Source: Epsilonproteobacteria bacterium tcs-49 (GTDB lineage: Bacteria > Campylobacterota > Campylobacteria > Campylobacterales > Sulfurovaceae). From it: DNA of 64,000 nt. Below, piece after piece: positions 39,744 to 54,401 of the stretch (the first letter of the stretch is position 1; the number at the start of each line of letters is the position of its first letter). The position numbers were made by a program, and so were the translations under genes. Under the pieces are notes generated by a model. The model saw only the letters and a program-made list of their open reading frames with translations. It was not told the DNA's origin and ran no database searches. Location of the stretch: assembly GCA_002049495.1 (NCBI GenBank), contig LLYS01000003.1:124001-188000 (forward strand), in the 5' to 3' direction.

Positions 39744-40655
39744 ATGCCCTTTGTAAAACAGATGTTTCACGTGAAACAACCGCAAAACCTTACCCTCTTT
39801 CTCCGCGATTTGTTCCAAATCCGATACAGGGAGGCACAGAAGCTCGTCGATACCGGCCGGGTGAGTCAAGGAGAAAGAATACTGCGTGATAAAAAAGAGA
39901 TTATCGAAGAGGCCGTCGAGGTCAAATACTTCCTTGCCAAAAGCCGGGGACTTTCCCCCTGCTTTCAGACCGACAGGTTTTTACTTTTCGACAAACCCGC
40001 CGGGCTGCATGTCCACCCGCAGCGACACGGCTACGGCTACACGCTCCTGGATGAGATACGCCACCACGGCGGCCGGCATGCCGACCCGGCCCACCGGCTC
40101 GACAGGGAGACCAGCGGATTGCTCCTTGCCGGAAGGGACAGAAAAAGCACCGGCGAACTGTCCCAACTGTTTGAAACACAAAAAGTAAAAAAAACATACC
40201 TTGCTCTGGTGCGGGGGAGGTTTAAAGAAAAGCGGCGTATCGAGCTGCCCTTAAGAAGCAGCGACAGCTATGCCAAATCCAAACACAAAACGGTAGTCGA
40301 TGACGGGGGGAAAAGCTCGGTGACGATCGTAAAGCCGCTACATTACGATCCCGTTCTGGACCAAACCCTTGTGCTGCTGCACCCCCAAACGGGAAGGACC
40401 CATCAACTGCGGGTCCATCTGTTTCACGTGAAACATCCCATCGTGGGCGATCCGCTTTACGGTACCGATTTTACAACGGCCGATCGCTATCTCGACGGTA
40501 AACTCAGTGGGCGGGAGCGTTTGGAAAGATGCGGGGCCAAGCGCCTCATGCTGCATGCGTACGCTTTGGAGTTTCGACTGGACAACCCCTTTACTCTTTT
40601 TTCTCCGACGCTTCCGTTTCCCTTTCCAACTCCTCAAGATCTTTCGATTCGATAG
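39744..40655 (+). CDS. RluA-family pseudouridine synthase
   Basis: HRLDRETSGLLLAGRD signature; HPQTGRTHQLRVHL. Confidence 0.9.
   Translation: MPFVKQMFHVKQPQNLTLFLRDLFQIRYREAQKLVDTGRVSQGERILRDKKEIIEEAVEVKYFLAKSRGLSPCFQTDRFLLFDKPAGLHVHPQRHGYGYTLLDEIRHHGGRHADPAHRLDRETSGLLLAGRDRKSTGELSQLFETQKVKKTYLALVRGRFKEKRRIELPLRSSDSYAKSKHKTVVDDGGKSSVTIVKPLHYDPVLDQTLVLLHPQTGRTHQLRVHLFHVKHPIVGDPLYGTDFTTADRYLDGKLSGRERLERCGAKRLMLHAYALEFRLDNPFTLFSPTLPFPFPTPQDLSIR
39763..39778. other. parS site 1 (perfect 16-bp palindrome)
   Basis: TGTTTCACGTGAAACA exact match to the canonical ParB/Spo0J parS sequence. Confidence 0.88.
40420..40435. other. parS site 2 (perfect 16-bp palindrome) within the RluA-like gene
   Basis: TGTTTCACGTGAAACA exact match, encodes LFHVKH. 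Confidence 0.88.
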
Positions 40656-42596: not shown

Positions 42597-43388
42597 ATGA
42601 TGAATATTAATAATATCGACTTCAACGATCTTTACAAAAGTCAGAAGCAAGCCACTACCTTCAAACCCAAAAACAGCGACGACTGGGATAAGAAAGCTTC
42701 CGGGATGGCGCAGCGGGTTTTTAAAAGTATCTACAACGAGCAGTTTTTGCAAAAGATGCGGGTTAAAAGCGGTAGCTCGATCCTGGACGTGGGCTGCGGC
42801 GCGGGCAACCTGTGTAAAGCATTCGCACCCCGTTTTGACAAGGTGTACGGGATAGATTACTCCGAGGGGATGCTTGAGCAGCTGCGACACAAGTGTCAAG
42901 GCGTCGATAATATAGAGGTGCAGAAAGTGGCGTGGGAGGATGACTGGAGCGATCTGCCCAAGTGTGACGTCGTCGTCGCTTCTCGCTCCATGGAGGTAGC
43001 CGATATGAAAGCCGCTTTACAAAAGCTTGACAAGCAGGCGAAAAAGGCAGTTTATTTGACCTACAAGGTGGGCGGCAGCTTCCTGCCCAAAGTGATCATG
43101 GACGTCCTGGATCTGCAGATCGTTGAAAAACCCGATTACATCTATATCGTCAATATCCTTTACGGTATGGGGATCGATCCCGAAATCACCTATATCGAAA
43201 GTGAAAACAGCAACTTCCGGTTTAACGGATTTGAAGAGTTTGTCAAGCGTGTGGGCTGGAGCCTGGGCGAGGAGGTAAACGCTTCCCAGCGGCAAAACCT
43301 CTACGGCCTTTACGAACAGTTGCAGCGGGGAGAAAAAGCGATCCCCGAACATACCAGGTGGGCTATGATCAGTTGGCACAAGGGGTAA
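42597..43388 (+). CDS. SAM-dependent methyltransferase
   Basis: SILDVGCGAGNLCKAFAPRFDKVYGIDYSEGMLEQ. Confidence 0.85.
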   Translation: MMNINNIDFNDLYKSQKQATTFKPKNSDDWDKKASGMAQRVFKSIYNEQFLQKMRVKSGSSILDVGCGAGNLCKAFAPRFDKVYGIDYSEGMLEQLRHKCQGVDNIEVQKVAWEDDWSDLPKCDVVVASRSMEVADMKAALQKLDKQAKKAVYLTYKVGGSFLPKVIMDVLDLQIVEKPDYIYIVNILYGMGIDPEITYIESENSNFRFNGFEEFVKRVGWSLGEEVNASQRQNLYGLYEQLQRGEKAIPEHTRWAMISWHKG

Positions 43389-45985: not shown

Positions 45986-46801
45986 CTAATCGTGGGCAAA
46001 TCCCAGCGCTTCGATGATATCGGCCGGACTCCTGTCATGCTCCTCGGCCACGGTTTTAAATTTATCTTCGGCAGCCGCGTCGATCCCCATCGCTTTGAGT
46101 CTATTTTGCAACTGCCGCGTACCCATCCCAAGTGTTTGCGCCACCGCTTCGATGGATTTTCTTCCCAAGCCGCTGATCACGGGGGTACCCTTTGCCGCAT
46201 CGCTACCCAACTTTGCGCGCAGCAGCTCATAGATTCCCTGGGGGCTGGTGCCGTTTTCCCCGGCGATACCGGAGAGCGACTGCCCCGGTTCAAAGCGCAG
46301 CCCCGCTTCTTTTAAAACCGATTGCGCCTTTTGGGCATCGTATCCCATCTTTTTGAGAAAGGTTTTAAGCGAACTTAGCTCCGCGTGGGAGTATGGAGGC
46401 GCGCCGTAATCCTTTTCCCAACTCTCTTTTATGGCATCACCGAAAGCCACAAAAGTGGAAAAAGGCGGTATCTCATAAAGCGTACCCGCGGCAAATAAAA
46501 CGGTAATCACCGAAGCTGCCGTCATCTCCTTGGTAAAAACGATCAACTGCCGCGCTTGGTTTTTCATATAACTTGTCATGGGTTTCCAATTGTAGTACAG
46601 GTGCAAAAGGCTTGCGGTGATAAACAGCACCATAAAGGTGGTATGCACCTGGGCAAACTGCTCCTTCGTCATCCCCAGCATCGTCCACTGCGCCCAGTGC
46701 GCGATCCGACCCGGAGGGGTGATAAAAAGCATCAACCCCGTATATACCATAGCTATCATCGCCAGCAGCATGATCAAAGATACGGTTTTTTTCAAACTCA
46801 T
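45986..46801 (-). CDS. DUF4405-like membrane protein with cytoplasmic C-terminal region
   Basis: N-terminal TM helices with HTTFMVLFITASLLHLYYNWKP. Confidence 0.6.
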   Translation of the reverse strand: MSLKKTVSLIMLLAMIAMVYTGLMLFITPPGRIAHWAQWTMLGMTKEQFAQVHTTFMVLFITASLLHLYYNWKPMTSYMKNQARQLIVFTKEMTAASVITVLFAAGTLYEIPPFSTFVAFGDAIKESWEKDYGAPPYSHAELSSLKTFLKKMGYDAQKAQSVLKEAGLRFEPGQSLSGIAGENGTSPQGIYELLRAKLGSDAAKGTPVISGLGRKSIEAVAQTLGMGTRQLQNRLKAMGIDAAAEDKFKTVAEEHDRSPADIIEALGFAHD

Positions 46802-46904: not shown

Positions 46905-46920
46905 TGTTCCATGTGAAACA
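46905..46920. other. Degenerate parS-like palindrome
   Basis: TGTTCCATGTGAAACA, two mismatches to canonical parS. Confidence 0.3.
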
Positions 46921-46967: not shown

Positions 46968-47464
46968 ATGCGGCTTTTTTTAGGCTCCTTCGCTACGGTT
47001 TATAACCTCACCCCTTTGCAAAAGCTGCTTGCTAACAAGATGCAGGGGCGCTGGGTCAAAGAGCAAAACCGCCACGTTACGCTGCAGTTTCTGGGTGATC
47101 GGTTCCGCCCTGAAGAGGTGATCGAGCGCTTGGGAAAGCTGCCCTACCCCAAAGGCAGAACAATCATTTTCGATCGCTTCGTTTTCCTGGGCAGAGAAAA
47201 AAACATTCTGGCTTTAACGACCCGAGACCAAGGGATTCGAGAACTGCACGGGAAGATAAGCCGGCGGCTTTTTGGCCAAAACGGCGAAGGCTACCTGCCC
47301 CACGTTTCCCTGCTGCGTATAAAAAGCTTTACGACCGCGACCTGCGTTCTGTGCTTGAAACCCCGCAAAACCCCGTGACCGCCGTAACAGAGTTGCAGGT
47401 GGAGCTGATCCAAAGCACTTTGGATGCCAGGGGAGCGCACTATGAAACCCTCTACCGCTTTTAA
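46968..47464 (+). pseudogene. RNA 2',3'-cyclic phosphodiesterase / 2'-5' RNA ligase (ThpR-like), frame broken by an apparent single-base deletion
   Basis: NRHVTLQFLGDR and LPHVSLLRIK motifs; alternate frame continues KKLYDRDLRSVLETPQNPVTAVTELQVELIQSTLDARGAHYETLYRF*. Confidence 0.82.
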
Positions 47465-51599: not shown

Positions 51600-51842
51600 C
51601 AGGGAAAATCTTCCCACAATCTTAAATCAAATTAAGGACAAATTCTCCAACTCCCGTAAATAGGGTTTTTCACACCGATTCACATGATGTGAAAAACTTT
51701 TTTCACCTATGATACTTGTATTTTATCCAACTTTTGATAAAATACGAACATCCCTATTTTAGGGCTTTTCTAAAAATTTTCCGAAATTTCAAGAAAAATT
51801 TATTTTTTTTTGATACAAAGTTTTTCACAAGGTTATTCACAT
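51600..51842. other. oriC-like region upstream of dnaA (putative DnaA-box cluster and AT-rich segment)
   Basis: Six TTCAC/GTGAA cores between 51669 and 51840, including TTCACATGATGTGAA and TTATTCACA, flanking an AT-rich stretch; ruvC-dnaA intergenic location. Confidence 0.7.
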
Positions 51843-53153
51843 ATGAATATTGGCGCCCAAATCCTCAAAGAACTCAAAAACGAGATCAGTTCGGTGGAGT
51901 ATTCCCGCTATATAAAACAGTTAAGCTATAGCCTGGAAGATTCCAGAAGCGACGAAGCGGTGTTTTTTGCTCCCAATAAGCTCATCGCCAACTGGATTAA
52001 GACCAAATACGCCGATAAAATTTCCCACCTTTTTGAGATCCACTCGGGAGTCAAAACCAAAGTGGTGATCAAACTGGGCAAAAAGGGCAAAGCCAAAGCC
52101 AGACCGAAACAGACGGAAAAGTCCCAAAAATCGAAAGCCAAATTCCTCAACCCCTCTCTGACTTTCGATAGTTTCATCGTGGGTGATTCCAACCAGTTTG
52201 CCTATACCTCCGCGCTAAGCGTGGCAAACAATCCGGGGACGACCTATAATCCCCTCTATATATACGGGGGCGTGGGACTGGGCAAAACCCACCTGCTCCA
52301 AGCCATCGGCAACCTCAACAAACAGAAAAACATGTCCATTCTCTATACGACGCTGGAGCAGTTTCTCAACGATTACCTGCGCCACATCGGCAACAAAACC
52401 ATGGACCGCTTCAGAGAAAAGTTTAGAAAGTGCGATATCCTGCTCATCGACGATATCCAGTTTCTGAGCAACAAGGAAAAACTGCAAGAGGAGCTGTTTC
52501 ATACCTTTAACGAACTGCACAACAGCGGTAAACAGATCGTCATCACCTCCGATAAATCCCCCAACAAGATCGCAGGTATAGAGGAGCGGCTCAAAAGCCG
52601 GTTTGAGTGGGGACTGATCACCGATATCCAACCTCCGGAGCTGGAAACAAAGATCGCCATTATCAAGAAAAAGTGCGAACTCGACGGGGTGCGCCTGGAT
52701 AACGATATCATCAACTACATCGCCACGAAGATGGGAGACAACATCCGCGAAATCGAGGGAACGATCCTTAAGCTCAACGCCTACAGCTCCATGATGAATA
52801 AAGATATCGACCTGGATTTCGTTAAAGATATCATCAAAGACCAGATCAACGAGCAAAAGGAAAATATCAGCATCGACGACGTGGTCAAGATGGTTTCAAG
52901 CGAACTCAACATCAAACCCAGCGAAATCAGATCCAAAAGTCGCTCTAAAAATATCGCAAACGCCCGCCGTATCGTTATCTACATCGCAAGAAACCTGACG
53001 CCCAACTCCACGCCCAAACTGGCGCAGTATTTCGGCATGAAAGACCACTCGGCGATCAGTAAAAATATCAAAAAGACCATGAGCCTGATCGAACAGGATG
53101 AAACCTTTCGACTCAAAATCAAAGAGTTGGAGCATAAAATCAAGGCCAATTAA
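51843..53153 (+). CDS. dnaA: Chromosomal replication initiator protein DnaA
   Basis: NPLYIYGGVGLGKTHLLQAIGN; LLIDDIQFLSNKE; ARRIVIYIARNLTPNSTPKLAQYFGMKDHSAISKNI. Confidence 0.97.
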   Translation: MNIGAQILKELKNEISSVEYSRYIKQLSYSLEDSRSDEAVFFAPNKLIANWIKTKYADKISHLFEIHSGVKTKVVIKLGKKGKAKARPKQTEKSQKSKAKFLNPSLTFDSFIVGDSNQFAYTSALSVANNPGTTYNPLYIYGGVGLGKTHLLQAIGNLNKQKNMSILYTTLEQFLNDYLRHIGNKTMDRFREKFRKCDILLIDDIQFLSNKEKLQEELFHTFNELHNSGKQIVITSDKSPNKIAGIEERLKSRFEWGLITDIQPPELETKIAIIKKKCELDGVRLDNDIINYIATKMGDNIREIEGTILKLNAYSSMMNKDIDLDFVKDIIKDQINEQKENISIDDVVKMVSSELNIKPSEIRSKSRSKNIANARRIVIYIARNLTPNSTPKLAQYFGMKDHSAISKNIKKTMSLIEQDETFRLKIKELEHKIKAN

Positions 53154-53333: not shown

Positions 53334-54401
53334 ATGAACTTCAAAATCCAGAAGCAGATCTTTGAGTCGGTACTTACCAATATTCAGCCTTTTCTAGAAA
53401 AAAAAGATCAAACCCAGATCACTTCACATATCAAGATAACCTCCAAAAACAACCACCTCTTTTTAGAAGCCACCGACAACGAGATCGGTTTAAGCATCCA
53501 AAACGTCGGTTTGGAAGTAGGGGATGATTTTACCTTCACCGTCAACGGTAAAAAAATTCTTGATATCGTCCGCATTTTAAAAGAGGGCTTTGTGGATGTG
53601 GATTTTGAAAACGATCAAGTCATCATCTCCCAAGAAAGTTCCCGGTTCAAACTTCCCACCTTTGAAGCCGATTCCTTTCCCCCCTTTCCCCAGATCGAAG
53701 ACAAAGCCAGCATTAGTCTGGATTCGTCGAAACTGATTGAAGGGTTTAAAAAGATCACCCCCGCAATCGATACCAACAATCCCAAATTTGAACTCAACGG
53801 AGCTTTGGTAGATATCAAAGCCGATAAAACCTCTATCGTAGGAACCGACACCAGACGTTTGGCGATCAAAACCATCGAAGGGGCCAACGATCAGGAACTT
53901 TCCATCATCGTACTGAAAAAAGCGATTATGGAGATCCAGAAACTTTTCCTGGATGAGATCGAAATGTTTTACGATGAAAACAATCTGATCATCAAATCCA
54001 ACAATTACTACTTCTTTACCCGTTTGGTCAACGGAAAATATCCCGATTACGAGCGTATCATTCCCAAAAGCGCGAAACATGAGTTGACGCTGGATAAAAA
54101 GGAGATGGTCGATGCGATCAAGATGATCACGACAATTTCCCAAGAGATCAAACTCACCATCGCTTCGGGGACGATCCTTTTTGAAAGTCTGGCCGAAGAT
54201 AATATCGAAGCGAAAACTTCCATCAATATCGACGGAGGATTGGATCAGGAGTTTACCATGGCGGTAAACAGCAGATATATCCTGGATTTTCTCAACCAGT
54301 CGGGAAGCGAAACTTTTACATTGCAGCTTAACGAACCCAGTCTTCCCTTCGTCTTGAAAAACGAAGACTTCATTACGGTCGTTATGCCGATCGTTTTATA
54401 A
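53334..54401 (+). CDS. dnaN: DNA polymerase III beta subunit (sliding clamp)
   Basis: Position after dna[36 protein letters not shown]-terminus. Confidence 0.96.

Follow-up and report, generated by a model that had tools for sequence, protein, structure and literature searches.

Predicted parS sites in an RluA-family pseudouridine synthase gene near dnaA, one of them conserved across much of the Campylobacterota

The window (the whole 64,000-nucleotide stretch of DNA analyzed) lies on contig C11 of the 17-contig, 2.22-Mb draft genome of Epsilonproteobacteria bacterium tcs-49. A motif scan of the window identified two exact copies of the canonical parS 16-mer, TGTTTCACGTGAAACA, at positions 39763 to 39778 and 40420 to 40435. 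Both palindromes are read in frame by a 303-amino-acid open reading frame (ORF) on the forward strand (39744 to 40655); the first encodes (M)FHVKQ (residues 7 to 12), and the second encodes LFHVKH (residues 226 to 231). The sites are 657 bp apart from start to start, leaving a gap of 641 bp. The dnaA gene (51810 to 53153, forward strand; TIGR00362, 1.5e-148), which marks the origin, begins 12.0 kb from the first site and 11.4 kb from the second and is followed by dnaN (53334 to 54401), recognized by its Pfam domains, while the GC skew profile changes sign, to positive, at about 56 kb of the window. The original prediction, made from the letters of the window, had placed two exact sites at these coordinates, about 640 bp apart and about 11 to 12 kb from dnaA, with MFHVKQ near the N terminus and LFHVKH in the catalytic domain, and the scan reproduced each of these particulars. 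The DnaA protein of this genome clusters with that of a member of family f16 (G051), not with those of its own family f1 (DnaA-tree support, 97/92).

From base composition, 1.5e-5 exact copies of TGTTTCACGTGAAACA would be expected in the window and 5e-4 in the genome. A search that tolerated as many as 3 mismatches found 4 matches in the window versus 0.28 expected. Across the whole draft genome, exact copies are restricted to the two sites described above, and the single additional match with 2 or fewer mismatches lies in the same window at 46905, with no copies scattered elsewhere. A chance origin of the two exact sites is ruled out by the base-composition expectation and the genome-wide counts. 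All three sites are clustered within about 12 kb of dnaA.

The site at 46905 to 46920, TGTTCCATGTGAAACA, carries 2 mismatches to the consensus and is probably a third, weaker parS. It is intergenic, between an ORF on the reverse strand (45986 to 46801) and a forward-strand gene (46968 to 47378) for an RNA 2',3'-cyclic phosphodiesterase-like protein, and is closer to dnaA (5 kb) than either of the two exact sites. In three other genomes (G289, G300, and G310), this 16-mer stands at the conserved position within rluA. A reversed control pattern also finds 3 matches in the genome at 2 or fewer mismatches, so rarity by itself is not enough to assign this site; its position near dnaA and its reappearance in other genomes are what support it.

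The gene that hosts the two exact sites is predicted to encode an intact RluA-family pseudouridine synthase, in agreement with its initial description as RluA-like. It contains the PseudoU_synth_2 domain (PF00849, 2.4e-32) and the aspartate of the HRLD motif (Asp120), which is invariant across 48 sequences. The match to TIGR00005 (1.7e-47) falls below the cut-off of that model, and no NCBIfam equivalog cut-off was reached in the profile search. The AlphaFold model (mean pLDDT, 93) finds its best PDB matches in RluD, RluA, and RluC of Escherichia coli, with which the protein shares the fold, the HRLD catalytic motif, and the RTHQLRVH and HPIVGDPLYG motifs. It differs from them in carrying FHVKH where xxxGH is usual at the end of a helix. 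This stretch, encoded by the second parS site, follows the THQLRVH motif in the catalytic domain, and in the model it would make up the final turn of helix 219-228 together with the loop after it, at a place where relatives lacking parS carry glycine.

The genome also encodes the proteins expected to act on such sites. The original prediction had placed parA and parB outside the window, and the pair indeed sits on another contig (C16) in the order birA-like gene, parA, parB, and two atpF-like genes (names from inspection of the translations), with the Walker-type ParA ORF directly upstream of parB. ParB gives the single match to a ParB-family model in the genome (TIGR00180, 1.9e-52), and its nearest solved structure is Helicobacter pylori Spo0J (4umk, 1.5e-68). 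It has a GERRLRA CTP-binding motif and, by the ungapped spacing of KSRTQITNTLRLLQ...SSGHAR, the residues R, T, Q, and G at positions 173, 179, 184, and 201 of Caulobacter ParB. Of these, Arg173 and Gly201 read parS and are absolutely conserved in extant ParB orthologues but changed in Noc (PMC7383237). Noc and similar ParB paralogues bind related palindromes (PMC7383237), which would allow the sites to be bound by another factor, either a nucleoid occlusion protein of the Noc type or a repressor acting locally on rluA. We regard this as extremely improbable, given the one ParB-family protein with its parS-type arginine and glycine and a motif that is not scattered in the genome. A missing chromosomal ParB gene and scattered copies of the motif had both been named in advance as arguments against a ParB loading locus; the presence of the parA-parB pair and the confinement of the sites to the neighborhood of the origin instead favor that prediction.

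The usual partners of an SMC-loading parS were not recovered. Profile searches of this genome found no SMC over the cut-off and no MksE-like DUF4194, and ScpA was found neither in this genome nor in 59 others, although the same search recovers it in nine known genomes used as a control. With no ScpA found in any of these genomes and no full SMC in this one, ParA-driven segregation is likelier than SMC loading, and the parS sites probably serve the former without the latter.

Orthologues of rluA were drawn from 60 genomes chosen regardless of parS, and 56 could be read at the homologous codons. At the internal site, 41 of the 56 carry parS (27 exact, 12 with 1 mismatch, and 2 with 2 mismatches). 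A survey of 298 genomes of the phylum placed the internal site in 135 of them and in 28 of 59 genera, with no match to the reversed pattern; no rluA-embedded site was found in families f8, f13, and f15 of that survey. For breadth only, since it selected for the peptide-coding pattern, a scan of named GTDB contigs returned at least 119 stretches with that pattern. Among the matches listed (80 of at least 119), every one falls inside an orthologue of rluA, and in 79 cases the gene offset is 670 to 682; their labels include Sulfurovum, Sulfurimonas, Sulfuricurvum, Nitratifractor, Nitratiruptor, Hydrogenimonas, and other Campylobacterota, with a few named just "bacterium." When mapped on a tree of DnaA from 41 genomes, the parS label takes 4 changes, compared with 11.9 when labels are shuffled, which suggests few gains and losses, with many deep branches of the tree poorly resolved. 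Closed genomes have their parS sites within about 90 kb of dnaA. Some relatives (e.g., G027, G033, G040, and G056) have no parS within 1 mismatch, which indicates that sites can be lost or diverge. By these comparisons, the internal site at 40420 is a widespread fixture of the Campylobacterota without being universal in the phylum.

The form of the site also varies at this position. In some genomes it is taken by a different perfect palindrome, either TGTTCCACGTGGAACA, which changes Lys to Glu, or TGTTTCATATGAAACA, which changes Val to Met, and mixed forms are commoner than either; the imperfect TGTTTCATGTGAAACA accounts for 49 of 136 rluA-site matches in Campylobacterota. One contig (C71 of genome G176) has two rluA-type sites, at 42881 and 43802, that are 921 bp apart and both have the palindrome TGTTCCACGTGGAACA, possibly a tandem duplication of rluA.

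Conservation of a coding sequence could also arise from the protein, with FHVKH demanded by the enzyme and the palindromes a by-product, and it is true that all 41 parS-bearing orthologues encode FH[VM]KH. The residues found in the absence of parS argue against this: the 15 other orthologues have glycine (14) or asparagine (1) at the lysine position, and 12 paralogue loci, including both paralogues of this genome, have glycine (9), aspartate (2), or glutamate (1) there, with 6 to 12 mismatches to parS at the homologous place. Codon choice speaks in the same direction. Given LFHVKH, an exact parS is expected in 1.3% of cases from the codon usage of the genes themselves, compared with 26 of 32 observed in sequences that share ancestry and are not independent trials. 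Excess synonymous identity, taken over 140 five-codon windows, peaks at LFHVK (0.42), compared with a mean of 0.03 (standard deviation, 0.05; maximum, 0.21) elsewhere in rluA. The fixed synonymous codons are confined to the 16-mer, and invariant residues flanking it use many codons in the same sequence set. In addition, the same 16-mer is read in a different frame, as VSRET, inside an unrelated gene. A purely enzymatic demand for FHVKH thus has a close to negligible probability, and codon coincidence as the source of parS is ruled out by the synonymous conservation and the paralogues. Apparently, it is the DNA-level site that shapes the RluA protein, with lysine replacing an otherwise conserved glycine. 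The expectation that the sites would be conserved among rluA relatives beyond codon constraint is therefore borne out strongly for the internal site at 40420; it fails for the sporadic site at 39763.

The history of the N-terminal site appears to be different. It is exact at one other locus (L168) and within one mismatch in three (G003, G023, and L124), and all other orthologues (about 130 compared) have 5 to 14 mismatches at this position. Comparison of these sequences indicates a sporadic distribution, and the site was probably added later in this lineage; an age equal to that of the internal site was rejected, as the N-terminal site is not conserved in most orthologues. The same lack of conservation would fit a reading in which the 40420 site alone works as parS, the copy at 39763 being incidental or redundant. 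We consider this very unlikely, because an exact 16-mer is hardly to be expected by chance, because the copy recurs at the loci just named, and because genomes with exactly two sites within 1 mismatch make up half of the sample (30 of 60). A functional role for both palindromes remains our preferred reading.

Other second sites are found in the surrounding taxa. Many members of the family have a second parS 2.2 to 3.3 kb from the start of rluA, in a nucleoside phosphorylase-like gene. This site of the family and order, read as VSRET (or a close variant) in another frame of a PNP_UDP_1 gene, occurs at L075, L076, L077, L079, L080, L082, L083, L085, L087, L088, L089, and L090. The nucleoside phosphorylase gene of this genome (L214), located beyond the window on the far side of dnaA, lacks the VSRET site. 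Two metagenome-assembled genomes (MAGs), labeled Sulfurimonadaceae (L150) and Helicobacteraceae (L153), have an extra exact parS at rluA offset 476, encoding VSRET, besides the one encoding FHVKH. In another MAG (L115), less than 4 kb of DNA holds four exact copies of parS, at offsets -1495, 676, 2231, and 2285 relative to the start of rluA, the last two just 54 bp apart.

The arrangement resembles the chromosomal ParABS (Soj-Spo0J) systems of Bacillus subtilis, Caulobacter, and Pseudomonas in the 16-bp consensus, the origin-proximal cluster, and the cognate ParA and ParB. It differs from them in that parAB lies outside the window, apart from the sites, and that ScpA and a full SMC were not detected in the genome, which makes the canonical SMC-loading role unlikely. 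The Soj/Spo0J system of H. pylori, for which two putative origin-proximal parS sites are mentioned in a passage citing Lee et al. 2006 (PMC9178275), belongs to the same phylum and provides the closest solved ParB (4umk); the likeness here is one of description, site sequences aside. Intragenic parS sites are already known, and nine of the ten sites of Pseudomonas aeruginosa most likely lie in coding sequence (PMC4368675). The literature searched, which did not include the parS survey of Livny et al. 2007, held no earlier report of parS in rluA or of a conserved dual-coding site. What is added here is an rluA address conserved in the phylum and evidence of a DNA site shaping a protein.

Collectively, it is very probable that both palindromes function as parS in a chromosomal ParABS system, the internal one old and locked in rluA and the N-terminal one acquired later, with ParA-driven segregation as the output. 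In ParABS systems, ParB loads, closes a CTP-dependent clamp, and slides, and ParA drives movement. From this established knowledge, we infer that ParB (Spo0J) dimers would load at the rluA sites about 12 kb left of dnaA, and probably at 46905 as well; the loaded ParB would bind CTP, close, and slide onto flanking DNA, and ParA would move the ParB complex such that newly copied origins separate. Selection at the DNA level would keep TTT-CAC-GTG-AAA-CA(Y) and thereby impose FHVKH on the end of the helix, a place occupied by glycine in relatives that lack parS. The likely order of events in this lineage would be an old 40420 site and a later gain of 39763, with the family-wide VSRET site missing in this genome. 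A further proposal holds that a centromere site, long fixed within an RNA-modifying enzyme's catalytic domain across much of the phylum, has dictated the change from glycine to lysine and that ParB loading may couple rluA expression to origin segregation; taken as a whole, we hold this to be possible but rather unlikely.

The locus is likely where ParB loads in a large group of bacteria, from vents, sediments, and hosts, whose segregation has received little study, and its predictable address (rluA, L-FHVKH) can be found in any assembly. With ScpA missing from all 60 genomes, the system also lends itself to the study of ParABS apart from SMC loading. The internal site further offers a clear natural case in which selection acts on one DNA stretch for its protein code as well as for its role as a centromere, and it is apparently the protein that yields.
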